Assembly (NCBI RefSeq): GCF_000236685.1
Contig: NC_016633.1
Location: 1 to 64,000 of the forward strand
DNA length: 64,000 bases
Direction of reading: 5' to 3'
DNA from: Sphaerochaeta pleomorpha str. Grapes
Lineage (GTDB): Bacteria; Spirochaetota; Spirochaetia; Sphaerochaetales; Sphaerochaetaceae
In this document: positions 4,487 to 54,416 of the stretch, piece after piece
How positions within the stretch are numbered: position 1 is the stretch's first letter
How the letters are laid out: each line of letters starts with the position of its first letter
The notes under the pieces: model-generated
What the model saw: only the letters and a program-made list of their open reading frames with translations
Told to the model about the DNA's origin: nothing
Databases searched by the model: none
Program-made: the position numbers and the translations under genes

Positions 4487-5437
4487 ATGACCCAAATGAA
4501 AGACAGGAACGAACAGAAAGCAATCAAGCTTGCCAAACGCCTCGGAACCGAGGCAGACGAGAAAGACCTACAGAAGCTGGATAGCAGGCTACCAGATATG
4601 AATAGAGGTCCTATAGCAAAGATATGGGACAAAGTCCAGGACTTGTACAGCTCATTCATGAGCGAGGAAACCCCAAATTCACTTCGTGTGCTTATCATCG
4701 GGGGGTTGCTCTACTTGATTCTCCCGCTTGATGTGGTTCCCGATGCCATACCGGTGGCAGGTTTGCTCGACGATGCCGCAGTCATTGGTTTTATCTGGAA
4801 AAAGCTGGCAGGCCTTGCCAAAATCGGGGTGAAGGTTGCCTCGAAAGCCCTTCCTGCCAAGGTAGGGGAGCAAATTACCCAAGCTTATGCCAAGGCTTTT
4901 GCTGCCGCCTCATCCAAGATGGAAAGCCTATTGAAGAAACAAGAACGTAAAACTATCGTAAATTGTGCCATAAACCTTGGCATATTTCTGGTTGCTCTCC
5001 TTTTGCTTTCCCTGGAAGGCGACCTTCCTTTGTTGCTTGCCTCCCTGTGCATCTTGTTTACGATGCTCCGCTCGCTCTATTCCTTTTTCAAGGCGCTTCC
5101 GACGATGCTGCAGATTTTCAGGGTTTGGCGAAAAAAACGATCGATTAACGGGACTATCAGTGAATATCTGAGGGTGAGGTATCCTTTTATCGTACCCTTG
5201 GAAACAATGAAAGCCGAAATCAAGGTGCTGGAGGGTATTCCTTCACTTGAAACAATGGTGGGGATGCAACGCAAAGCACTTGCGAAAACAATGCTCTCCG
5301 TTGGTTTCTCGCTTTTGGCAGCAATTGTCCTTGTCTTTGTGCTGAGGCATCTGCTTCTTGCCCTCAACACTCCCTATACGTTTTGGGATTTGCTCTCTTA
5401 CCCGTTTGTCAGGTTCTGGAGTCTGTTTTTAAGATAA
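4487..5437 (+). CDS. DUF1232 (YkvA-type) membrane protein
   Basis: Protein of 316 residues. Its N-terminal part contains the DUF1232 signature (LLYLILPLDVVPDAIPVAGLLDDAAVIGFIWK, about residues 74-105, read here as LPLDVVPDAIP then LLDDAAVIG). The remainder has two hydrophobic hairpins (about 165-200 and 265-290). The family is widespread and of unknown biochemical function. No clear ribosome site precedes ATG 4487; ATG 4496 is an alternative. Its 3' end overlaps the end of convergent jetD by 40 bases, so the two transcripts are antisense at their tails. Confidence 0.75.
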   Translation: MTQMKDRNEQKAIKLAKRLGTEADEKDLQKLDSRLPDMNRGPIAKIWDKVQDLYSSFMSEETPNSLRVLIIGGLLYLILPLDVVPDAIPVAGLLDDAAVIGFIWKKLAGLAKIGVKVASKALPAKVGEQITQAYAKAFAAASSKMESLLKKQERKTIVNCAINLGIFLVALLLLSLEGDLPLLLASLCILFTMLRSLYSFFKALPTMLQIFRVWRKKRSINGTISEYLRVRYPFIVPLETMKAEIKVLEGIPSLETMVGMQRKALAKTMLSVGFSLLAAIVLVFVLRHLLLALNTPYTFWDLLSYPFVRFWSLFLR

Positions 5438-6564
5438 CCAAGGGAAATTCTCTCTTGTTCAAGCAAAAGTGGCCCTTCAGGGCCCTGTACCCGATGCAGG
5501 GCTTCTTTTTCTTCTGGTGTAAGGTTGCGGTATTCCCCTGGATAGGATTTTCCCTTGAGCAGGTAGGCGCAGTGATCTTCCAGGGTCTTTATGTCCATGC
5601 AGAACGATTTCGTTTGGGGATAGAGTGTCCTGAATTTGTCCAGTATGGCAAACCCGTGTTCATCAAGGTCCCCGAAATAATATATCCCGACAGTCTGGAA
5701 TAGTAAGCTACCCTTGCAGGCAAGGAGGGCATAGCCTCCTACATAAAGACACAGGTCTTCAGCCTCCAGGGGGAAAGTGAAAAACATAGTCTCGTTTTCG
5801 ACGATAAAGATACGTTTGGCGGCAAGGTTGAAGGAACGTAGGGATTCCGGTGTGAGTATAATGGTCGAGGTCTGCCCGCAGGATGAACTCCCCAGGTTCA
5901 CCGCAAAAGGCCTGTTTGACCGGATTTTTACCAATGACTCCTTTTTCCTGAGCCCAAGGCGGGTGAGGTCGTCATCGCCTTCGACAAGGGGTCGAAGGGA
6001 GCCCACCAGGCTTTTTACCAGTGCAAGGTTCGTTTCCAAAAACTTTGTCGGGGCTTCGGCGGGTAATTCCCGCGCAAAGAGGCCGCAGTTTGGATTGTCA
6101 ACCAGAAAACGGGTAATCTGGCAAAACCATTGACCATCGGTTCCTTCCCAACGGGAGAATACCTCCGACTTCTTTGCCAGCAGCCAAGGGATGAATTCCT
6201 CCTCAGGAAATGTTGCCTTCAGCATCGCCACGTTAGCAGAGAAAAGGGATCCTTTGTTTTCAGCTCCCAGAAGGTACAGAAAATCATCCTCTGTTTCAAC
6301 TAAGAGATTCGAAACGGCGGTTTGCCTGCCCATGGTCCGGGATTCTTTTGTTTCCGTCTCGACGATATAGCCTTTGCCTTTCTTTGCCTTGCTCTGGGCA
6401 AAAAGCGTTGCCAGGGCACTCTCACGCGTTTGGAAATCGTCATGGATCGAACCTTTGTCTGCACGAAGCGAGAGGGGAAAGAAAGGGGTTCCCAAAATCT
6501 TTGCCTTCAGATATTCGTTCTTCTTGTTTTCGACCTTCGTTTTGATTTCCGCTGGGCTGATCAT
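5398..6564 (-). CDS. jetD: Wadjet anti-plasmid system protein JetD (TOPRIM nuclease subunit)
   Basis: Nuclease subunit of the Wadjet complex, which recognises and cleaves closed circular DNA such as plasmids. The start gives a 388-residue protein, MISPAEIKTK, 2 bases after the jetC stop with GGGAG upstream; longer in-frame starts lie inside jetC. The N-terminal half matches the DUF3322 arm. The C-terminal half carries a TOPRIM-like catalytic set: IVENE (E256/E258), GDLDEHG (D299, D301) and LLEQE near residue 367, as expected for DUF2220/TopoVI-like JetD. Last gene of the operon. The acidic catalytic residues look intact, so the system should be active. Confidence 0.9.
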   Translation of the reverse strand: MISPAEIKTKVENKKNEYLKAKILGTPFFPLSLRADKGSIHDDFQTRESALATLFAQSKAKKGKGYIVETETKESRTMGRQTAVSNLLVETEDDFLYLLGAENKGSLFSANVAMLKATFPEEEFIPWLLAKKSEVFSRWEGTDGQWFCQITRFLVDNPNCGLFARELPAEAPTKFLETNLALVKSLVGSLRPLVEGDDDLTRLGLRKKESLVKIRSNRPFAVNLGSSSCGQTSTIILTPESLRSFNLAAKRIFIVENETMFFTFPLEAEDLCLYVGGYALLACKGSLLFQTVGIYYFGDLDEHGFAILDKFRTLYPQTKSFCMDIKTLEDHCAYLLKGKSYPGEYRNLTPEEKEALHRVQGPEGPLLLEQERISLGYLKNRLQNLTNG

Positions 6565-6566
6565 GC

Positions 6567-9500
6567 TTATCTCCCTAATTGTTCCCTCAGTTTTTCCTTG
6601 GTGAGGCTGTGCACAAAGGAATGGCATCCATCGTTGCACACGGTTATCTGCACGCTGTTGATATAGGGCTCCACCAGATTGACCTTGTCCTTGGGGGTTA
6701 CTACCATCAACTGGAGGTCCATTTTCTTGAATAAATCCATGGCATATCGGGAATTCTCGTCATCGCTCTTGCTGAAGGCCTCATCGACTATCACAAACCG
6801 GAAGGAACGTGAGACATTGGAAATGTCAAAGACATCGAACTGATGGGCAATTGCCGCTGCCAAGATGGTGTAGGCGAGCTTAGCTTTCTGACCGCCTGAG
6901 ATTCCGGCGCTGTCCTGGTAATAACGGACCTGTTTTTCTGTCTTGGAATCATATTCCTCTACGGCAAAGACAAACCAGCGACGGACATCCAATACTTTTT
7001 TACAGAACTGGTCATCTGTTTTCAATGTTTCCAAAAGGGTTTTGACTGCCTCAAAGAAGTGTTGGTTGGCGATTTCCTCTGCTTTCTCATTTCCTTGGAT
7101 TCTGCTTCCTGCATCAGGTATGGCCGCACTGAGCATCGAATTGAATTGTCGTATCTGGCTATCCTTAACCCGCTCTGCAGTGAGCTTGATCTTTGTCTCA
7201 GGGTGAATCTGGTAGATGATTGAAGAGAGACTGTCATTCAGTTCGACAATATTTTCCTTGATATGCCGTTCCCATTGACGCAGGGCTGTATTGAAATTGA
7301 TGATATCGCTCTTCATCTGACGAGAACGCAAGTTTGCAAACCGTTCCTTGTATTTGGGGAGGTCTTCACGCTCAAGTTTATCCAGCATGGCCAAGAACAT
7401 GTCCAAAGCCTCAATATCGGGCCTGAGGTCCGAGACGTCTCCAATCCAGGTCGGATAGGTTTGTGTCATTTTTGCATTGGGACGGACAAAATGGTCCATC
7501 AGGTTCTCGGTCTTTTTCTTTGATTGATCCCGTTTTGCCGAGATTTCCTCAATCTGGGAATCGAGTTTTGCCAATAGCTCGTTTCGTGTTTTCTTGATCT
7601 GTATCAAGCTCTCAAAGGTGGCAGGCAGCTTATAGCGAGCGGAAATCTTCTCGATCTGGTCCATATATTGGGCAAGGTCCAAATTGGCAAGTTGGTCGGC
7701 ATAGGTCTTTTTTTCCCGTTCGGCGTCTTTGCGTTCCTGTTGGTTCGCTCCCTGGCTTCTATAGAGTTCTTCTTGTTCCGATACGAGCCGGTCCCTGGCT
7801 ACCTCTGATTGCCTCAGTTGCTGTTTGAGAGAACTGAGGTCGTCCATTTCGCTTCTCAGGGCAAAGAGTTGATTATCGAGTACGTCTATCTGGGTTTCCA
7901 CCGATGCGGTGTCGATTTCACTGAATTCCTTAAATTCCTGGAGGCGCAAGATAGCGGCTTTCTGTGCCTCAAGGTGTTTCTTTTGTTTTCTCAAATCCTC
8001 CAGCACAGATTCAGTTTCTTTTTTGAGGTCATCCAATTGCACCAGTCGTGACCGAATGCGTTCTCTCTTTTCGCTGACATCCCATCCGAGGATGTGCAAC
8101 TCTTCCCCTTTTTTTGTAGCGCCCTTACAAAGGAGCGTTTCCTTATGAAATAGTCCGCGTTCACTGAAGGAAGCCGGGCTTTCCAGTACATGGGAGAGGT
8201 TGTCACAGGAATAATAGGGCACTTCCCTGCCAAGCAAATCCTTGATAAAGGGTGCAAAGGTACAACTCGGTTTGACTTCAAGCATCAAATCAAGCCGGTT
8301 TGGGGCATTGGTATCCTCAAAGAACACCTGCTCTTCATCATCGACGAGTTTGAGCTGATGCTTTTCGTCCTCATCGACCGGTAGGGCTTTGGTTCCTTCG
8401 ATAACCATTACATCGAGATGCAACTCCAATGCGTTATTCCAAAGATAGGTGGCGATTATCTGTTCCTGGTAGGGTTGTACGAGAAGGGTAAGGGCTAGTG
8501 TATGCAGTGCTGCGTTCGCCCCGGTTTCAAACGAAAGGCAATCTTGCCTGAGCTGAACCAACTCCCCGAGAAAGGGGACGTCGCTTTCTTTCAGCTGGAG
8601 ATCTTTGCAGAGTTGTTCCCGGCAGAGCAAGTATTCCAACGGGATGTTGGACTCCCTGTTTCCGATGGCATCGAGTTGACTCTGGACATTTTCCCGTTCC
8701 CGGTTACATGCCCCCAGTTGTTGCACTTGGTCGGTCTGGTCGTCCTCAATGTTCATCAGTTTGTTGGTAATCTTTTCCAGAAGATGGTCGGATTGAAAAC
8801 GGTTCTCCGTAAAGTCTGCCGAATTTTCACTAAGGGGAAGGTGAAGCATGTCAACAACTGTCTTGTAGTTGTTCCTGTTCGCTCTGGCGAGAGCGAGTTT
8901 GCTGGTAAGCCATTCACGCTGTCTTTTCAGTTCTTCTTCCCGCTCCACCCGTTTGTCGCTGGAGAGTGTACGATGCACTTCCTCGATAGTTTCCCTGATC
9001 GCTTCCGATTCCCTTTTATTCTCTGAAAGCCTGTCTGCTACCAGATCTTTCTGATTTTCGAGCCTGACGATTTCTTTCTGCAGGAATTGATCTGCACGCA
9101 ACCCTTCCCAGAAAGGTAGGGTATGCTTCTCGATTCCGAGTGATGCCAGCTTGGTGTCGAGATGAAGGAAGTCCTGTGCCTCCGTTTCAATTGCCTTGAG
9201 CTGGCGAATCTGTTCCTCTTCTTTCTCGATCAGCTTCTTGGTCCCCATCAGGGTTTCGAAATTGGCCAGTGTGCTGTTGAATTCCCCGATCATGTCCATC
9301 TCGACAAGCATACGGGTGCGGATGAACTCATTGAGGTTGGAAAGGTCTTTCATCCCAACGGTCTGGGAGAAAATCCTGAGTGCTTTTTCCCGGTCACGGA
9401 ACCCAAAGCGGGTAGCAAATTCAATGCTATAGGCTTTGAAAGTGTCGAAGAAATAGAGTTTGCAGGTGGAAGTAAATGCCGCGGTCATGCGCTTTTTCCA

Positions 9501-10019
9501 TCCGGGGGTGGCATCGAAGGCAACGTTACGTTCGGCCATGTCCTGTAAACTCAGGCTTCCCTCGCAGATGACGAAGAGTTTCTGCATTGTTCCGTTCAAG
9601 GTAAAATAGCGAATCTGCATCAACGTCAGGGGGAATTCTGCATTGTCATTATCAAATTGACCCAGCAATATGCTATGGCAGTTCTTGTCCCTGAGGTATT
9701 CTTTGTTCGCGGCATAGTCGCTTTCGCCTTTTGTCGTCGAATAGGCCCCGAGAACGTAGCTTTCCTCGGTTCTTCCGTCTTTTCCGTCCTGGCCGCTGGA
9801 TAGGTTGTAGGTCCTGTATTCCCTGGGGACGAGAAGGGTAAGCAAGGCATCGACCAAGGTGGTCTTGCCACTGCCGTTTGCTCCGGTGAGCAGAGTGTTC
9901 TCCCCTTGGAAATCCAGCGTTACGACATGGTCGGAGAAAGTTCCCCAGTTATAGATCTGGAAATGCGAGAGGCGGTATCCACTATGTTGGAGACCCAAAT
10001 CAAGTTCACTTTCAAGCAT
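6567..10019 (-). CDS. jetC: Wadjet anti-plasmid system protein JetC (SMC-like ATPase)
   Basis: SMC/MukB-like motor of the Wadjet complex, 1150 residues from ATG 10019, which lies inside the last codons of jetB (8-base overlap). Longer ORF starts upstream have no support. Visible motifs are Walker A GANGSGKTT (46-54), ABC signature ISGGQ (about 1040-1044) and Walker B FVIVDEAF (about 1075-1082), with several hundred residues of charged, coiled-coil-like sequence between, interrupted by a compact hinge-like region around the middle. Size and motif order match JetC of type I systems. All ATPase motifs are intact. Confidence 0.93.
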   Translation of the reverse strand: MLESELDLGLQHSGYRLSHFQIYNWGTFSDHVVTLDFQGENTLLTGANGSGKTTLVDALLTLLVPREYRTYNLSSGQDGKDGRTEESYVLGAYSTTKGESDYAANKEYLRDKNCHSILLGQFDNDNAEFPLTLMQIRYFTLNGTMQKLFVICEGSLSLQDMAERNVAFDATPGWKKRMTAAFTSTCKLYFFDTFKAYSIEFATRFGFRDREKALRIFSQTVGMKDLSNLNEFIRTRMLVEMDMIGEFNSTLANFETLMGTKKLIEKEEEQIRQLKAIETEAQDFLHLDTKLASLGIEKHTLPFWEGLRADQFLQKEIVRLENQKDLVADRLSENKRESEAIRETIEEVHRTLSSDKRVEREEELKRQREWLTSKLALARANRNNYKTVVDMLHLPLSENSADFTENRFQSDHLLEKITNKLMNIEDDQTDQVQQLGACNRERENVQSQLDAIGNRESNIPLEYLLCREQLCKDLQLKESDVPFLGELVQLRQDCLSFETGANAALHTLALTLLVQPYQEQIIATYLWNNALELHLDVMVIEGTKALPVDEDEKHQLKLVDDEEQVFFEDTNAPNRLDLMLEVKPSCTFAPFIKDLLGREVPYYSCDNLSHVLESPASFSERGLFHKETLLCKGATKKGEELHILGWDVSEKRERIRSRLVQLDDLKKETESVLEDLRKQKKHLEAQKAAILRLQEFKEFSEIDTASVETQIDVLDNQLFALRSEMDDLSSLKQQLRQSEVARDRLVSEQEELYRSQGANQQERKDAEREKKTYADQLANLDLAQYMDQIEKISARYKLPATFESLIQIKKTRNELLAKLDSQIEEISAKRDQSKKKTENLMDHFVRPNAKMTQTYPTWIGDVSDLRPDIEALDMFLAMLDKLEREDLPKYKERFANLRSRQMKSDIINFNTALRQWERHIKENIVELNDSLSSIIYQIHPETKIKLTAERVKDSQIRQFNSMLSAAIPDAGSRIQGNEKAEEIANQHFFEAVKTLLETLKTDDQFCKKVLDVRRWFVFAVEEYDSKTEKQVRYYQDSAGISGGQKAKLAYTILAAAIAHQFDVFDISNVSRSFRFVIVDEAFSKSDDENSRYAMDLFKKMDLQLMVVTPKDKVNLVEPYINSVQITVCNDGCHSFVHSLTKEKLREQLGR

Positions 10020-10620
10020 TGTCTTCCCCCTTGAGGTTTTCCAGACGGTTTTTAAAGGCAGAGAGGAAGGCCGAGGTAACCTTTGCCCGGATAATGGTAC
10101 GTATTTCATATTCCCGGTCATTCGGAGAGGAAAGGTTGTCGGATGTCGGTCGGTGAATGCATTTGATAAATTCCATTTGGGTCAGGCTTGCGAGCAGGGA
10201 TGCTACCATATCTGCATATTTCACTTTATCCTGGCTGTTCGGATAGTAGGATTCCATCAAATCTGCAATCTGTCCCTCATGGAGGATGAGTGCCCGGCTT
10301 GTGCTTCTGCTCATTTCGAATTTGTCGAGTTCGTCACGCAATATGACTAACAGCAGGGACTGTTCATAGGTAAGGGGGAATTTTCTGAGCAATCTCAGTC
10401 CGTCTCCGATGACATTGCCCTCCTCATCCTCGTTTTCCACCAGAAATGCATAGCCATCGTCAATGTTCAGCTGGAGGGTAAGGCCTATGACGGCAAAATA
10501 TGCATTGACTTGCTGCTGCCAGATGACAAGGCTTTCGAAATGATCGGGATTTTCTTCCCGAAAGAGAGGTGCGAGCAAAAGCCGTGTGCAGAGATTGCCC
10601 CATTCAGTTGTCAATTCCAT
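10012..10620 (-). CDS. jetB: Wadjet anti-plasmid system protein JetB (DUF4194)
   Basis: Kleisin-associated (KITE/MukE-like) subunit of the Wadjet SMC complex, 202 residues. It is called by its DUF4194-like winged-helix sequence (e.g. TYEQSLLLVILRDELDKFE) and by its place between jetA and jetC. It begins with AAGGTGGAAATCA before the ATG, inside the 3' end of jetA (17-base overlap), and overlaps jetC by 8 bases, so A, B and C are translationally coupled. Confidence 0.88.
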   Translation of the reverse strand: MELTTEWGNLCTRLLLAPLFREENPDHFESLVIWQQQVNAYFAVIGLTLQLNIDDGYAFLVENEDEEGNVIGDGLRLLRKFPLTYEQSLLLVILRDELDKFEMSRSTSRALILHEGQIADLMESYYPNSQDKVKYADMVASLLASLTQMEFIKCIHRPTSDNLSSPNDREYEIRTIIRAKVTSAFLSAFKNRLENLKGEDNA

Positions 10621-12130
10621 TGATTTCCACCTTTGGTATGGTAAGCGTGACAGGAGCCCCGTCTATCGCATTGGTATATGTTACTGTTTCTTTTCTTGTA
10701 TCATCAAACTCAGCCCAATCCTGTTTGGCTAACAAGGAGAGATAGGATACGATTTCTGCAAGTCCTTCTTTGACTGGGTGCCTGAGTAAAACAGTTCCTA
10801 ACGTTAATTGCCGTGTATGTTTTCGGTCAAATTCCAGGTTTTCAAGCAATTGGTTTTCATCGATCCTAGCTTCGTCAAACAAAGATTGGATATCGATATC
10901 AGCCGGTGCCCTCTCCTCTTCGTAGGTGGTTTTTTTGACCGTAGACTGGGTTTCTGGTAAGACAGGGTATCGTTGCAGGGATGAAAATATATCTGCCGAG
11001 CCATCAATTTGTGATAAGTTCTCTGTCTTGTAGGGAGGATTTCCTATTGCCAGGATTTTGATGGAATCGAGGGTTTCCTTTATCAGGCGGTATTCCTTGG
11101 AGTTGTATCGGGTAATCGCACGCTTAAGACGATCGGAAAGCAAACGGTTCTCTTCCAAGATCTCACGTCCCGCATCGATGAGGGTGTCTTCCAGATGGGC
11201 AAAGAACGGATAGTCGAATAGCTGGTTTCCCAACCGGGCTTTCAGGGCGTCTGCTTTTGCCCTGATGGAATTATCCTCAGGGTTGGAACAGAGGTAGTTC
11301 CAAAAAGAAGTGAAACTCTGGCCTTGGGGTGAGGTTTCCAGTTCTTCGCTTTTCTCCAGGGTGAAGGCCAGTAGTTCTCCCCTGCTTTCGGTGGACTGGA
11401 TCTGCTTGTGGCAGAGTTCCGAGAAGATTGCATGATTGTTGTCTTTCAGTTGCCTGAAGTCGGAAAGGAGTGCCCTTGCCGTTCGCTGCAAATTGTAGAG
11501 GCGTTCGGAAACTTTCTGTTCATTGAAGGTGGTCGCTGTTCCTGTCCGTTTGATTTCATCTATCTGTCTCTGCAGTTGGTCTTTCTGTTTCTCCAATTCG
11601 TCAATTTTGGCCCGTGGGTTGTCAATGGTGTTTATATCGAGTTCGCGAAACCCGTCCATGATCTGGGAGAAACGTGACTCGGTTCCTACAAACAGTCGTT
11701 TGGAGTCTACAACTTCCTCGAGAAACCGGAAAATCCTTTCGAGACCTGCTGACAGTTCGATGGTTTCAATGGCTGCTGCATCATAGTAACGCAACAGAAA
11801 ACCGTTTTTTTCATTACTCCAGGCCAGGATGAGATTCCTTGCCTTGTCACTGTAATCCAATTCGATAATCGAGGTTTCAAGGGTTTCCAGTTCATCTTCT
11901 TCTGCGAAATCCTCGGTGACCTGGAGAAAGCCAGAGAGCAATTGCTGCAGGTGTGATTGTTCGATACTGGTACGGTTCTGTTCTTTGAAGACATGATACA
12001 GGAAGGCGATAATCCTGGGAGCATTCTTACGCGAAAGCAAAGTGAGACCACTATCGTAATGGATTAACTGTTCAACAAAGGTACTATCAGATAACAAGGT
12101 TTTTCTCCCAAGAGAACTGGGTTTTTGCAT
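10604..12130 (-). CDS. jetA: Wadjet anti-plasmid system protein JetA (DUF3375)
   Basis: Kleisin (MukF-like) subunit of the Wadjet complex, 508 residues. The N-terminus (LLSRKNAPRIIAFLYHVFK) is the DUF3375 signature. The middle is helical and coiled-coil, and the C-terminus ends in a winged-helix-like segment. It starts only 3 bases after the stop of the upstream MFS gene, so expression depends on that gene's transcript. The order jetA-jetB-jetC-jetD is the type I arrangement. Confidence 0.9.
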   Translation of the reverse strand: MQKPSSLGRKTLLSDSTFVEQLIHYDSGLTLLSRKNAPRIIAFLYHVFKEQNRTSIEQSHLQQLLSGFLQVTEDFAEEDELETLETSIIELDYSDKARNLILAWSNEKNGFLLRYYDAAAIETIELSAGLERIFRFLEEVVDSKRLFVGTESRFSQIMDGFRELDINTIDNPRAKIDELEKQKDQLQRQIDEIKRTGTATTFNEQKVSERLYNLQRTARALLSDFRQLKDNNHAIFSELCHKQIQSTESRGELLAFTLEKSEELETSPQGQSFTSFWNYLCSNPEDNSIRAKADALKARLGNQLFDYPFFAHLEDTLIDAGREILEENRLLSDRLKRAITRYNSKEYRLIKETLDSIKILAIGNPPYKTENLSQIDGSADIFSSLQRYPVLPETQSTVKKTTYEEERAPADIDIQSLFDEARIDENQLLENLEFDRKHTRQLTLGTVLLRHPVKEGLAEIVSYLSLLAKQDWAEFDDTRKETVTYTNAIDGAPVTLTIPKVEINGIDN

Positions 12131-12133
12131 ATA

Positions 12134-13315
12134 CTAACTGCTTAATTCGTTTTTTTCCATACGTTTTTGTCCTAATAGCAGGAATATGAGGATAAAGGGG
12201 AATAGAGAACCGGCGATGAGCCCGGCTTTAAGCTGCATAACCGGGGCATGGTCTGCAACCAGGCCTATCAGGTAGGGGCCAATTGCAGCACCTGTATCCC
12301 CAGCCGCGGCCAAAAGGGCAAACATTCCGGCTCCTGCGAGGGGAAAGACCCTGGTTGACAATACGATTGAACCAGGCCAGAGCAGACTTGTGGCAAACCC
12401 GCAGGCCGAACAGGCAAAAAGGGAGACCAACGGGATAGGGGAAAGGGCGGCGACCAGATAACAGACCACAGCCAGCGACGAGCCAATGGTCATGAGGCGC
12501 CTTACGTTCCATTTTGAACCAAAGTGGCCGAAGAGAGCCCTGCCTGTGCCAAGGCAAGCTGCAAACAGGCAAAGTCCGATAAGGTCGCCTGTTGCCTTTG
12601 GCAAATGGAGGGCTTGCTCGGTAAAGGCACTGGTCCACTGACTCATGGAAACCTCAGCAGCCCCGCCAGCGAGAATTCCCAGAACCAGAAGGAAGAACAG
12701 AGGTGAAGCGAGCAATTCTTTTCCTTTGGTCCTTTCGTGTTCGGCTACCATCGGGGCCAAGGGGACAAAACAGAAATTGATGCCACCTGCCAAGGGAACA
12801 ATGGTCCAGAGTAGCATGACCCACTGCCACTGAAGTACAGTGAGCAAGAAGGTGGTAAGCACTACGACAAGGATGAATCCCCAGGCATAGAAGCTGTGCA
12901 AAAGAGCCATAGCCTTAGCTTTTTCCGGTCCAGGGATTGCCTGGATGATGGGGGAGAGCAACAGTTCCATAAGACCGCTGGCACAACTAAAGATTATGGT
13001 AGCAATGACAAAACCGACATAGGGCGAAGACGGGAAAAGGCGAGGGGACAAGGCAAACAGTGCCAGTCCGATTGCAGCAATGAAGTGGCCTGCCACGACA
13101 AAGCGTCGGGGCCCGTATTTGTCCACAGGACGGCTGAAGGCCAGGTCGGTGACTATCTGGGTAAAGAAATTGATAAGGGTAAGCCTACCGGCCATCTCGA
13201 AAGTCAGGCCATAGTCTGTCATCAGGGTAACAAAGAGCAAAGGGGTGAGGTTGCAGGCAAGGGCACCGACGAGATTCCCTTCATAACAGGCATGGATTGT
13301 ACGGTTATAGTTCAT
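12134..13315 (-). CDS. MFS transporter, first gene of the Wadjet operon
   Basis: Twelve-segment major facilitator protein of about 393 residues starting MNYNRTIHACYEG. GGGGG lies 9 bases upstream; an earlier ATG at 13369 has no site. The loop GRLTLINFFTQIVTDLAFSRPVDKYGPRR holds the MFS inter-helix motif (read in part as RPVDKYGPRR). It resembles sugar or drug-type MFS proteins of the FucP/permease type, but the substrate is not readable. Its stop codon is 3 bases before jetA, making it the lead cistron of an apparent five-gene operon. Whether it serves defence or only shares the promoter is unknown. Confidence 0.8.
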   Translation of the reverse strand: MNYNRTIHACYEGNLVGALACNLTPLLFVTLMTDYGLTFEMAGRLTLINFFTQIVTDLAFSRPVDKYGPRRFVVAGHFIAAIGLALFALSPRLFPSSPYVGFVIATIIFSCASGLMELLLSPIIQAIPGPEKAKAMALLHSFYAWGFILVVVLTTFLLTVLQWQWVMLLWTIVPLAGGINFCFVPLAPMVAEHERTKGKELLASPLFFLLVLGILAGGAAEVSMSQWTSAFTEQALHLPKATGDLIGLCLFAACLGTGRALFGHFGSKWNVRRLMTIGSSLAVVCYLVAALSPIPLVSLFACSACGFATSLLWPGSIVLSTRVFPLAGAGMFALLAAAGDTGAAIGPYLIGLVADHAPVMQLKAGLIAGSLFPFILIFLLLGQKRMEKNELSS

Positions 13316-13404
13316 GGAAAAATTACCCCCCTGGTAAAATTGCGACACGGTATCACTTCTGGCAATCATGGGGTATTTGCAAGCTTTTCACAAGGAGAAA
13401 TTTT

Positions 13405-13437
13405 CGGTAAATGTCCGATAAATGCCCGATAAATACC
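13405..13437. repeat. Three 11-bp tandem repeats upstream of the MFS-Wadjet operon
   Basis: Three adjacent copies CGGTAAATGTC, CGATAAATGCC and CGATAAATACC with a period of exactly 11 bases, about one helical turn. They lie about 90 bases before the MFS start and 170 before the divergent gene. This looks like a binding array for a regulator; no partner is known. Confidence 0.6.
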
Positions 13438-23844: not shown

Positions 23845-26037
23845 TCAAGAATGATTGATATCTTGTAAAATTGTAAGAATCTTCGTTGCCTCTTTACTTA
23901 AATTGCTTTCTGAAATATCAAGTGCAGGCTGGAATAGGTTGAAATTACCTTCAAAGTGGTTGAATTCATTTAATAGTGTCTTTTTCGACGTTAATTGAAC
24001 TCGGAATTTTTGATCTTGAACACCACTTAATGCTTTATAAATATAATCACCTAGTAATTCACATTTTTTTGTTCTTTCTGGGAATTTATCGTGTAATGTT
24101 TTTTCCACATGTAAGCGTAGATAGAGGAAAGTTAAAGATTGTTTTAAAGTCTTCTCAAGTAAAGGGAATTGAGAACCTGTGAAAAATTCAATATTAGAAA
24201 GATCAAGAGCAATAATGTCTTGGGCTGAAATGATACATGCTTCCTCAATTTTCTTTGAAAAAACAAGATTGTATATATTTGTTAAATTAACTTCACGATT
24301 TTCTTTGCCATGCATAAGACATGTTAATTGTTCTTTTATTGGCACATAATCTTCTGGCGGGTTTGGAGGGTCTAATCTCATAATTTTAACCAAAGCACGC
24401 ATGAATGGTATAAGAGAAACCATAAATAATTTATTATCTGTAATATAGTCATCAATTATATTTGTTCTTAGTAATTCCAAGAGCTTATCAAAATAAAGAA
24501 CGATATCTCTTTCTTCAGAAGCAATAGGAATAAATCCACAATTGCTTGGATTGTTTTGTAAGAAATAGGCGTTGAAACAATGAGTTTTCTGAACATCAAG
24601 TAAACGAACTAAATCTAAGTTATGTGTGAAAATAAGAGCTTGTTTATTATCTAAGATTTTTAATAAACAATATGCAATCTTATTTTTATAGATTGAATCG
24701 GAACTAGATATTGGATCATCAATTAAAATTATATGTGCAGTAGAATTTTTAGCCTTTAGCAATTCGAACGTCAAGGATATGAAATTTTGTTCACCAGTGC
24801 TTAAAGGTAAATCTTCTCTAGGATTATCAATTAATTGAACATCACCTAATTTAATTATGATATTGTTTTCTACATCTCTTTCAAGATTTACTTTTCTATC
24901 AAGGGTATCGATAATCATATTCTCTATAATCATCTCATCTTCAGATTCTAAACTTAATTTCTTTTTAACTAATTGGTTATATTCATTATATGTTTCTTCA
25001 ATTTTCAATTCTTTCCAAAGGCTGAGAAGTGAATTTGTAATTTGTATTTCTAAGTTATTTTGATATTCTTTTAAAGAATTTTTAATTGATTGTAGATGTT
25101 CAATGTTCCCAGAGGTTAAGATTTCTGTTAAATCCATAATGAAATTAAAAGGATCTTCCTGTGGGGTTAATTTCCCTATAATATTTTCGAGAATTGATTT
25201 TGTTTCTGAATTTAAAGACAAAATTAGTTGTTCATTTTTAAAAGATTTGCTTTTAATCAATAACTCAGGTTCAATACCCTCAGTATCACAAACAATACAT
25301 TGGCTTGAGTCTATGTATTTGTTTAAAATTGTGATCGCTGTTTTATTGCTTTCAAAGGTTTTAATACTTCTCGAAGAAATAATTTTATTTTCTGGGATAA
25401 CTTTAATTTGTTCGATTAATGAATCTGCTATAGACATATCCTTTAGAAAAAATTTTATGTTATCAGCTGGAAGGTTTTCGTATTCTTGGATAGAGAAACT
25501 TAAAAAATATTCAATCCATTGCGAAATTTTGATAGAATTTACCTTTGTTGAGCGATTTGCTGTCACACTGATTACTTTTTTGAGATTTGAGTTTGATATC
25601 GAATCTATAAAGGGTGTGCTTTTTTTTGAACAAAAATATTCATTTTTTAAGATATCCTTTGTTCTAGCAAAGAAATTTCCAAAAACTGTATCAAGAGAAT
25701 TTTTAAGCTCTCGTTCTTTACGGATATTATCGCCTAAAATAAATTCATCGGTATTACCTTTTATTATATTCCGAGAGATTTGATCATTTATAACATGAAA
25801 TAAAGAAGTACTAGTATTTATATCATATTGAGTACCTTCATAAACACCGCCAAATTCAGTTCTAGCCTTTCCTTTGCAAATATTGGTTATTGTTGTTTTA
25901 CCTTCTCCGTTTGGTGCATAAGCTATGGCAATACCCTGTTGAGAAAAAGATATTACGTTATTTGTTTCAAGATTCTTGAATGCGTCAGATAATCTTGGTC
26001 CATCGACTAGGCGATTGATTATAAGTTCTTTGCCCAT
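23845..26037 (-). CDS. AAA_13 (RloC/PrrC-like) ATPase, candidate anticodon nuclease
   Basis: Intact 730-residue protein with an ABC-type ATPase split by an insert: Walker A APNGEGKTT (41-49), signature LSTGEQ (412-417), Walker B IILIDDP (436-442) and switch histidine THNLD (471-475). The helical insert between them contains CIVC (247-250), like the zinc-hook cysteines of RloC. After the ATPase is a helical C-terminal domain with R641 and E645 (RLHVE) and H694 (NEFNHFEG), the same order as the Arg-Glu-His set proposed for the PrrC/RloC nuclease. AAA_13 proteins are annotated as wobble-nucleotide-excising tRNases; the nuclease call here is inference. The gene is visibly AT-richer than its surroundings and sits inside the tRNA-Arg island. 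Ribosome site AAAGGA lies 12 bases before the ATG. Confidence 0.8.
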   Translation of the reverse strand: MGKELIINRLVDGPRLSDAFKNLETNNVISFSQQGIAIAYAPNGEGKTTITNICKGKARTEFGGVYEGTQYDINTSTSLFHVINDQISRNIIKGNTDEFILGDNIRKERELKNSLDTVFGNFFARTKDILKNEYFCSKKSTPFIDSISNSNLKKVISVTANRSTKVNSIKISQWIEYFLSFSIQEYENLPADNIKFFLKDMSIADSLIEQIKVIPENKIISSRSIKTFESNKTAITILNKYIDSSQCIVCDTEGIEPELLIKSKSFKNEQLILSLNSETKSILENIIGKLTPQEDPFNFIMDLTEILTSGNIEHLQSIKNSLKEYQNNLEIQITNSLLSLWKELKIEETYNEYNQLVKKKLSLESEDEMIIENMIIDTLDRKVNLERDVENNIIIKLGDVQLIDNPREDLPLSTGEQNFISLTFELLKAKNSTAHIILIDDPISSSDSIYKNKIAYCLLKILDNKQALIFTHNLDLVRLLDVQKTHCFNAYFLQNNPSNCGFIPIASEERDIVLYFDKLLELLRTNIIDDYITDNKLFMVSLIPFMRALVKIMRLDPPNPPEDYVPIKEQLTCLMHGKENREVNLTNIYNLVFSKKIEEACIISAQDIIALDLSNIEFFTGSQFPLLEKTLKQSLTFLYLRLHVEKTLHDKFPERTKKCELLGDYIYKALSGVQDQKFRVQLTSKKTLLNEFNHFEGNFNLFQPALDISESNLSKEATKILTILQDINHS

Positions 26038-50267: not shown

Positions 50268-53200
50268 ATGAAAAAGACTAACAAAAAACATATATTACTG
50301 GTAATTGTATCGATATTGCTTTGCTTTGTCGGTTGTAGCGACATGATGGAGAAACTGGGAAAGATTTCCCTCCATATCGAATTAGACAACCACGAGGTCT
50401 CCGTTGCCTCCTATACTTTGACTGGGACACAAGGAAGCGTAACGCTTAATCCTGAAGTCCCTGAATCCCTCAACGTTGACTTGTCATCCTTGAAGCCTGG
50501 GACATGGTCGCTTACGGTAAAAGCCTTTGACAGTGGAAGTACGCAGATTGGTACCGGGACACAGGAAGTTAATCTCAAGGAAGGACAGGTTCTGGACACT
50601 ACCTTGCTGGTTGTGTTTACCCAGCCAGACCCAGAGGTTACAGATTTCACGCTGTTATCCCCCTCTCGTTTTGATACCACTGATGGCAAGATTAAAGATA
50701 CTACGGCAAAAATGGAATACAAGCTTGCTTCGTCTGGGGATGAGGCCTATGTTGCCTGTACCGAAGGTGAAACTATTTTGCCTCCGGGAACCTATCTGGT
50801 CAGGTATGCCGCAGCTCGAGGCTTTGATGCAAGTGAACCCCTTGCGATAACAATACCGGAATATGAACCGATCCAACTGACAATCGAAGACCCGACGTTG
50901 ACCACCACCAAAGTCTATGACGGTACTATCGATATCACCGGTACCGTGACTGCGGGTGCTCTGATCGGGGTAAAGGGAACAGATGCTGTATCAGTGAGTG
51001 CAACAGCAAGCTATGATTCAACCAATGCAGAGAATGGGAAAACCATAACAGTAACCTATACACTGGATGGGGCAGACAAGGAGAACTACAAGAAGCCGGT
51101 AGACAAAACAGTTGCTGGCGTAATCGAGAAGAAACAGCTTACCGTCGCAGACCCGACGTTGACCACAACCAAAGTATATGACGGAACTGTCGGTATCGCG
51201 GGTACCGTGACTGCGGGCGCTCTGATTGGAATTAATGGAACAGATGCTGTAACAGTGAGTGCAACAGCAAGCTATGATTCAACCACTGCGGAGAATGAAA
51301 AAACCATATCTGTCGGGTACACACTAAGCGGAGGTGACAAAGACAACTATTTCAAGCCTGTTAATAAAACGGTAGCGGGCGTTATAGAAAAGAAGCTGCT
51401 CACCGTTTCAGCTACCGCTACAGAGAAGGTCTACGACGGGACAATCAATGCTACCGGAATTCTGTCTTTGGAAGGGGTTGTCGGTTCGGATGAGGTACGT
51501 GCAACAGGCACTTATGCCTTCGCCGATGCCAATGTTGGTACCTCGAAGACAGTCAACGTGACCGGGATAACGCTTTCTGGTGCAAAGGCATCAAACTATT
51601 CGCTTTCGGCAACCACAGCTACGGCTACTGCTGCTATCACCAAAGCCACCTACGACATGAGCAAGATCAGCTTCAGCGGGGCATCGCCAACCTATGATGG
51701 GAATCCCCATTCCCTCTCAATCTCTGGCACCCTGCCTTCCGGAGTATCTGTTTCCTATAGCGGGAATGCGATGACCGATGCAGGGACTTACACGGTGATT
51801 GCAAGCTTCACCGGAGACAGCTCGAACTATGAGGCAATCGCAAGCAAGAGTGCGACACTTGCCATCGGCAAGGCAACCTACGATATGAGCGGTATCAGCT
51901 TCAACGGAGCATCGCCAACCTATGATGGGAATCCCCAGTCCCTCTCAATCTCGGGTAGCCTGCCCTTCGGGGTCAGTGTTTCCTACAGCGGGAATGCGAA
52001 GACCGATGTAGGGACCTACACGGTGGTTGCAAGCTTCTCTGGCGACAGTGCGAACTATACTGCGATTGAAAGCAAGAGTGCGACACTTGCCATAGGCAAG
52101 GCCACCTACGACATGAGCAAGATCAGCTTCAGCGGGGCATCGCCAACCTATGATGGGAATCCCCATTCCCTCTCAATCTCGGGCATCCTGCCTCCCGGAG
52201 TATCTGTTTCCTATAGCGGGAATGCGAGGACCGATGCAGGGACCTACACGGTGATTGCAAGCTTCACCGGAGACAGCTCGAACTATGAGGCAATCGCAAG
52301 CAAGAGTGCGACACTTACAATCAGCAAGGCTACCATGACAGGGACTGTGTCGGTTTCCGGGACTGCAAGGTATGGCGAAATCTTGACAGCGCAACCGAGT
52401 CTTTCCAACGCAGGGACGCCGACCTACCAGTGGAAACGTAGTGGGAATGTGATAAGCGGGGCAACAGGTTTGACCTATACCCTGGCCTCGGCTGACATTG
52501 GGTCGGCAATCACTGTTGTGGCGACCGCAGATGGCGTGAATTATACAGGTTCGATTACCAGCGCAACGACGGATACCGTCACCAAGGCAGTCTTGACCGC
52601 GACGGTTGGCGATTTCACGAGATCCTATGGTGAAGCCAATCCCTCGCTCGCTGTTTCGGTCACCGGATTCGTTAATAGTGAGAGTCCCTCCACTGCAAGT
52701 GGCTATGTGGCGCCGACGGCATCTGCTGCGGCTACAGCCTCCACCGGTTTGGGTTCCTATGGAATCACCCTTGCGGGCGGCAGTGCAGACAATTACAGTT
52801 TCGATACCAGCGACACGGGGACACTGACCATCCAGCAGAAGACGCTCTCGGTTACAACGATGGTAAGCGGCAAGACTTATGACGGAAATACACAGGGGTC
52901 GGGGAATTTCTTTATTGGAGGGGTCGTCGGCTCGGATGAGGTCGGTGTAACCGGTACCTTCACTTTTGAGGATGCCAATGCCGGTAATATAAAGACAGTC
53001 AACGTGACCGGGATAACCCTCACGGGTGCACAGAAAGCAAATTACTCGCTTGCGTCGACGACAGCTACCGGAAGGGTTTCGATTTATAAGAAGACGCTCA
53101 CCGTTACAGCGGCGGCTGATGGGAAGCTCTACGACGGGACAATCAATGCCACCGGAAGTCTGTCTTTAGGAGGGATTGTCGGTTCGGATGAGGTAAGTGC

Positions 53201-54416
53201 AACCGGTACCTTCGCTTTCGCCGATGTCAATGCAGGTTCTTCCAAGACAGTGAATGTGACCGGGATAACGCTTTCTGGTGCGAAGGCATCCAACTATTCG
53301 CTTTCGGCAACCACAGCTACGACTACTGCTGCTATCACCAAGGCCACCATGACAGGAACTGTCTCGATTACCGGTACAGCCAAATATGGTGAAACCTTGA
53401 CAGCGGTAGCGAGCCTGACTAATGCAGGGACGCCGACCTACCAGTGGAAACGTGGTGGAGTTGCGATAAGCGGTGCAACCGGTACGACCTATATCCTCAC
53501 TGCTTCTGATACCGGATATACTATTACGGTAACCGCGACCGCAGGTGGTTCCAATTACCAGGGGAGCATTACCAGCTTGGCAACAGCTGTGGTAGAAAAA
53601 AATGCTGGAGAATCCATAAGTGATTCTCCCCTCGGATATTTCCCATCCTTGCCTGCAACCCAAACAATCATAAACTTCACAGGTTTTACTGAAAACCTTG
53701 CCGGAATTGAAGCCTGTGTTTCTCTCAATGGTTCGCCATATGGTAGTTATGCAGATGTTGAAGTGGATAGCCGCGGCAGGGCGATGATTTTGGTAGGCTC
53801 TGATGTTACAACCGCTACAAAAGTCCAGTTCAGGAAAAAGGAGACAAACACTACGTATGCTGGACCTTCGAAAGAGATTTCTATATCTGAACAGGCTCTT
53901 TCAATTGGAGACTATTATCAAGGCGGAGTTGTTGCCTATCTCTACACTTCAGGATTTGGATATGTCAGTGGTGAAGTCCATGGCATAATTGCAGCGAAAA
54001 ATAACCAAGGTTCGATTCGCTGGTACAATGGAACTAATGAGCTTGTAGGCGTGTCAAATACCTCGGTAGGTGCCGGTTTAGCAAATACCAATGCAATTAT
54101 TGCAAAACAAGGAGCGGTTTCTACCAGTTATGCTGCAGGTCTTGCTCGCTCCTATACTGGAGGTGGCTATGCTGATTGGTTCCTGCCCTCTCTAGGTGAG
54201 TTAACTCTGCTGTATCATAATAGTGCACTCATAGGAAATCTCAATCTAGATGGAAGTAATTACTGGAGTTCCAATGAATCTATCCAGTATGGTTATGAAC
54301 CAGCGATATATGCAGCGGGTCGTCTGTTCAGTACTACAGTAAATCCTACGTATGATAACATATACGCGTTTTGGAAAACGGATATTTTGCTTGTACGCCC
54401 AATAAGGTATTTCTAA
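50268..54416 (+). CDS. Large surface lipoprotein with YDG and MBG repeats and a C-terminal Lcl/DUF1566-like domain
   Basis: 1382 residues. Signal peptide with lipobox FVGC (Cys23), a short N-terminal domain, then about 1000 residues of Ig-like repeats. First come YDG-type units (TKVYDGTIDITGTVTAGAL and relatives), then three 76-residue MBG-type units with exact period (residues 459-686), and then mixed units. The end (about 1213-1382) has GYADWFLPSLGELTLLYHN and NYWSSNE, the pattern of the DUF1566/Lcl-type carbohydrate- or ligand-binding fold. It looks like an adhesin or surface-display protein presenting a terminal binding domain on a long stalk. Start ATG follows AGGGGG. Confidence 0.85.
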   Translation: MKKTNKKHILLVIVSILLCFVGCSDMMEKLGKISLHIELDNHEVSVASYTLTGTQGSVTLNPEVPESLNVDLSSLKPGTWSLTVKAFDSGSTQIGTGTQEVNLKEGQVLDTTLLVVFTQPDPEVTDFTLLSPSRFDTTDGKIKDTTAKMEYKLASSGDEAYVACTEGETILPPGTYLVRYAAARGFDASEPLAITIPEYEPIQLTIEDPTLTTTKVYDGTIDITGTVTAGALIGVKGTDAVSVSATASYDSTNAENGKTITVTYTLDGADKENYKKPVDKTVAGVIEKKQLTVADPTLTTTKVYDGTVGIAGTVTAGALIGINGTDAVTVSATASYDSTTAENEKTISVGYTLSGGDKDNYFKPVNKTVAGVIEKKLLTVSATATEKVYDGTINATGILSLEGVVGSDEVRATGTYAFADANVGTSKTVNVTGITLSGAKASNYSLSATTATATAAITKATYDMSKISFSGASPTYDGNPHSLSISGTLPSGVSVSYSGNAMTDAGTYTVIASFTGDSSNYEAIASKSATLAIGKATYDMSGISFNGASPTYDGNPQSLSISGSLPFGVSVSYSGNAKTDVGTYTVVASFSGDSANYTAIESKSATLAIGKATYDMSKISFSGASPTYDGNPHSLSISGILPPGVSVSYSGNARTDAGTYTVIASFTGDSSNYEAIASKSATLTISKATMTGTVSVSGTARYGEILTAQPSLSNAGTPTYQWKRSGNVISGATGLTYTLASADIGSAITVVATADGVNYTGSITSATTDTVTKAVLTATVGDFTRSYGEANPSLAVSVTGFVNSESPSTASGYVAPTASAAATASTGLGSYGITLAGGSADNYSFDTSDTGTLTIQQKTLSVTTMVSGKTYDGNTQGSGNFFIGGVVGSDEVGVTGTFTFEDANAGNIKTVNVTGITLTGAQKANYSLASTTATGRVSIYKKTLTVTAAADGKLYDGTINATGSLSLGGIVGSDEVSATGTFAFADVNAGSSKTVNVTGITLSGAKASNYSLSATTATTTAAITKATMTGTVSITGTAKYGETLTAVASLTNAGTPTYQWKRGGVAISGATGTTYILTASDTGYTITVTATAGGSNYQGSITSLATAVVEKNAGESISDSPLGYFPSLPATQTIINFTGFTENLAGIEACVSLNGSPYGSYADVEVDSRGRAMILVGSDVTTATKVQFRKKETNTTYAGPSKEISISEQALSIGDYYQGGVVAYLYTSGFGYVSGEVHGIIAAKNNQGSIRWYNGTNELVGVSNTSVGAGLANTNAIIAKQGAVSTSYAAGLARSYTGGGYADWFLPSLGELTLLYHNSALIGNLNLDGSNYWSSNESIQYGYEPAIYAAGRLFSTTVNPTYDNIYAFWKTDILLVRPIRYF
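51642..52325 (+). repeat. Three 228-bp direct repeats in the surface lipoprotein gene
   Basis: Units 51642-51869, 51870-52097 and 52098-52325, in frame (76 codons). Units 1 and 3 are almost identical; unit 2 differs more. Such repeats can expand or contract by recombination. Confidence 0.92.

Follow-up and report, generated by a model that had tools for sequence, protein, structure and literature searches.

A complete type I Wadjet operon in Sphaerochaeta pleomorpha and the MFS transporter gene that precedes it

Wadjet, encoded by jetABCD, is a plasmid-cleaving SMC complex of which all four subunits are required in B. subtilis, and which has been reconstituted from purified proteins (PMC10586767). 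Wadjet operons consist of three SMC-complex genes plus jetD (PMC12287153). A transporter is not part of the system in either of these accounts (PMC10586767, PMC12287153).

The window analysed here (the whole stretch of 64,000 nucleotides from the Sphaerochaeta pleomorpha Grapes genome) carries jetA, jetB, jetC and jetD head to tail on the minus strand, from 12130 to 5398, and the ORF list and domain searches indicate that all four genes are full-length. The first, jetA (10604-12130), encodes a kleisin-like DUF3375 protein (Pfam PF11855, E=1.9e-70; PADLOC JetA1, E=1.5e-81) and jetB (10012-10620) a KITE/MukE-like protein of the DUF4194/MksE type (PF13835, E=8e-35; JetB1, E=1.3e-65). They are followed by jetC (6567-10019), which encodes an SMC/MukB-like ATPase (JetC1, E=3.6e-244), and jetD (5398-6564), which encodes the TOPRIM nuclease subunit (PF11795 and PF09983, i.e. 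DUF3322 and JetD_C; JetD1, E=1.2e-109). Kleisin, KITE, SMC and TOPRIM genes all lie within this one operon. The assignment to type I follows from the PADLOC profiles, as JetA1, JetB1, JetC1 and JetD1 are the best matches, while JetC2, JetD2 and JetD3 are far weaker. In JetC, the Walker A motif (GANGSGKTT), the signature (SGGQKAKLAYTILAAAIA) and the Walker B motif (FRFVIVDEAFSKSD) are all intact and were invariant in our homologue comparison, and sequence comparison matches the protein to the solved JetC chains 8dk2 and 8as8. JetD keeps the ENE and GDLDEHGF motifs, with its TOPRIM acidic residues intact, matches the solved MksG nuclease 8b7f across the TOPRIM region, and is single-copy in the 3.59-Mb genome. 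The type I Wadjet at this locus is complete and ordinary, an anti-plasmid defence operon whose activity we infer. This agrees with the sequence-only reading of the window, which had described four full-length Jet proteins (ORFs, Pfam and PADLOC type I profiles concur), together with the ATPase motifs of JetC and the TOPRIM acids of JetD (all present and intact). At three other loci (L131, L132, and L133) the Wadjet order is permuted, with jetD directly upstream of jetA. Elsewhere in the window, a 730-aa ORF on the minus strand (23845-26037) looks foreign, with 28.9% GC (GC3 0.21) versus 46% GC for the window, and Pfam gives for it only a sub-threshold SMC_N match.

The genes are tightly packed, as had been noted from the sequence: jetA shares 17 nt with jetB, and only 2 nt separate the jetC stop from the start of jetD. 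The ORF of jetC is open to 10121, but its homologues start at a position corresponding to ATG 10019, which is preceded by AGGGGG and is most likely the start codon. With this start, JetC is 1150 aa long instead of 1184 and jetB and jetC overlap by 8 nt, so that both overlaps claimed between jetA, jetB and jetC are present. The start of jetA also calls for revision. ATG 12130, which leaves a 3-nt gap after the stop codon of the upstream MFS gene, has no evident ribosome-binding site, whereas aligned JetA homologues begin at MxSD, that is at TTG 12097, with GGGAG upstream. The true start is likely to be TTG 12097 and not ATG 12130. Because homologues favour the former, the gap is probably 36 nt; the 3 bases originally counted hold only for ATG 12130. 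The revised starts of jetA and jetC leave the operon reading unchanged.

The gene directly upstream of jetA, on the same strand, encodes a 393-aa MFS transporter that is not part of Wadjet (12134-13315, minus strand; PF07690, MFS_1, E=1.6e-34); no relative of this protein was found by sequence among solved structures. A sequence scan found no terminator-like site between the two genes, and a consensus scan, of a kind that misses many promoters, found no sigma-70-like site on the minus strand in the stretch from jetA to the MFS start. As neither kind of site was found there, read-through from the MFS promoter into the jet genes is plausible. Upstream of the MFS gene, a weak promoter-like site, TTGTGA-17-CATGAT, was read by eye (8/12, below the scan threshold), and three tandem 11-bp repeats (ATTTATCGGGC, ATTTATCGGAC and ATTTACCGAAA; 13398-13434, minus strand), found at no other locus fetched, form a possible operator. 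Together with the 3-36 nt gap, these features argue for a single transcription unit: the defence genes would be driven by the MFS promoter, perhaps via the 11-bp repeats, with no part for the MFS protein. On the other hand, such scans overlook many promoters, and the promoter-like sites that ours returned equal the shuffled mean in number. Folding of the MFS-jetA junction gave no clear advantage over shuffled sequence (z -1.31), and Rfam gave no match. We give the single unit an even chance. It concerns expression only and is compatible with the explanation that we prefer for the locus (see below). The earlier description of the transporter gene as first cistron of the jet unit is thus plausible, given the shared strand, the short gap and the failure to find a terminator-like site at the junction.

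The same tight same-strand spacing and lack of a terminator-like site could also mean that the transporter is a functional accessory of Wadjet, for example one that carries signals or products through the membrane. The sequence-only reading had proposed that the gene might be either an accessory or just a promoter donor, and had pointed to jetA neighbourhoods as the place to look for the same MFS family. There, however, the family is absent: an MFS homologue lies upstream of jetA at none of the 60 other jetA loci where the preceding gene could be read (12 from the same family, 26 from a phylum survey and 22 from a broader scan), and at the four nearest Wadjets (JetC 41-44% identical) the 240-620 bp that were read ahead of jetA contain no MFS frame. 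Upstream neighbours of jetA are varied, including a Kdo transferase gene that overlaps jetA and a PhoU gene beside a Na/Pi cotransporter gene. Unrelated transporters do occur near a few other jet loci (MatE, Na/Pi cotransporter, SSF symporter), which is what chance would give.

Relatives of S. pleomorpha, moreover, keep the MFS gene elsewhere. Of 139 Sphaerochaetaceae genomes surveyed, 18 had a JetA hit and 50 a hit to the MFS transporter. Within the genus, leaving aside the S. pleomorpha Grapes genome, MFS homologues (51-62% identical, mostly single-copy) are carried by 22 of the 25 genomes and JetA by only three of the 25, and most genus genomes thus have the transporter without Wadjet. Wherever the two co-occur (G106, G115, G122, G088-G090, and G097), they are unlinked, located on different contigs or megabases apart. 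Finally, the published reconstitution of Wadjet, reviewed in PMC10586767, required JetABCD alone. Among the loci surveyed, the MFS-jetA adjacency is peculiar to the S. pleomorpha genome. On these neighbourhood surveys we reject the transporter as a Wadjet accessory, a role that we consider very improbable; the sequence-only reading had itself named absence of the MFS gene next to jetABCD in most relatives as a refutation, and this is what the surveys show. What survives of the original proposal is that the gene stands upstream incidentally and may act as promoter donor.

At the MFS loci read in relatives, the neighbours of the gene are sbcD-sbcC in five genomes (G091, G092, G095, G100, and G101), a beta-galactosidase operon in G113-G115, and HAD/phosphoglucomutase-like genes in G122, G124, G088-G090, and G121; in G093 and G110, a 485-aa ORF lies between sbcDC and the MFS gene. 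At five loci of genus members (L031-L033, L044, and L045), the homologue comes directly after sbcD-sbcC, either overlapping or at a distance of 14-39 nt. On the other side of the MFS gene, most genus members read have a convergent gene for a cNMP-binding protein. S. pleomorpha has these genus-typical partners without the MFS gene (the cNMP-binding gene at 2.56 Mb and sbcDC at 0.94 Mb), which is consistent with relocation or replacement of the latter. Its composition is not foreign (GC3 0.58, equal to that of jetC). Every relative read has a rearranged gene order around the jet site. The MFS gene was probably placed before jetABCD after a local rearrangement, by relocation or replacement. In phylogenetic tests, a sister relationship with the copy of the nearest relative, G106, was rejected (AU p=0.006), a grouping with G105 and G106 gave AU p=0.04, and a single-genus origin was not rejected (AU p=0.31); the S. 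pleomorpha copy lies on a long branch, and its position in the tree is therefore uncertain. The MFS gene could be a replacement or an acquisition, and could then have a history in common with the Wadjet genes. As for the latter, JetC is approximately 44% identical to the nearest relative found. No Wadjet like that of S. pleomorpha was found in viral contigs, and plasmids yielded mostly distant JetC relatives (below 30% identity) and one short 62.5% stretch in Treponema.

We thus regard it as very likely that the locus is an ordinary type I Wadjet and that the MFS gene upstream represents a transporter lineage found across the family, has an unrelated role of its own and was placed in front of jetABCD by rearrangement. 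Two observations run counter to such a chance neighbourhood: the MFS gene lies very near jetA on the same strand and no terminator separates the two, as in a true operon, and the S. pleomorpha MFS copy does not group with those of its nearest relatives. According to the established mechanism of the family, JetABC would act on small circular DNA by extruding loops; completion of extrusion would activate JetD, which would cut the circular DNA, and the cell would resist plasmids. If the MFS and jet genes share a transcript, the MFS promoter would help express the latter.

The other flank of the operon provides a second candidate partner. A gene for a DUF1232 membrane protein (4487-5437, plus strand; about four transmembrane stretches by hydropathy) is convergent with jetD and overlaps its 3' end by 40 nt. 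In G078 and G081, two genomes from a different genus, a homologue occupies the same convergent position next to jetD, and the two proteins show similar divergence: JetC is 43% identical between S. pleomorpha and these genomes and 69.5% between the latter two, compared with 44-46% and 70% for DUF1232. Both the shared position and this co-divergence suggest a linked accessory of the S. pleomorpha Wadjet lineage. However, the gene is found beside jetD in only three of the 44 JetA-bearing genomes (two genera), in the near relative G106 a 74% identical copy stands without any jet remnant next to it, and the convergent orientation excludes ordinary co-transcription. We find a linked accessory unlikely, and quite unlikely the more specific possibility that the protein serves a Wadjet subgroup as a lineage-specific membrane partner, tethering the complex to the membrane or modulating it. 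In the literature collection searched in full text, no paper names both Wadjet and DUF1232, nor both Wadjet and Sphaerochaeta. As a lead to any membrane partner that Wadjet may have in this lineage, the DUF1232 gene is weak, but better than the MFS gene. Separately, the window encodes a probable large surface protein of 1382 aa, with five YDG repeats and an MBG domain (50268-54416, plus strand).

With this locus, the known type I Wadjets gain a complete and divergent member, and the transporter gene illustrates that a conspicuous neighbour may look like part of an operon and yet stand there by chance. In its jetA-B-C-D order, domains, catalytic motifs and overlapping genes, it resembles known type I Wadjet systems such as MksBEFG of Corynebacterium glutamicum and EptABCD of mycobacteria; unlike them, it is divergent in sequence and preceded by an MFS gene, an arrangement seen only here. 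The transporter, in turn, resembles the MFS_1 proteins of the Sphaerochaetaceae (a family that includes Pleomorphochaeta), with 51-62% identity to the homologues within the genus, but its gene precedes jetABCD, whereas theirs lie beside sbcDC or sugar genes.
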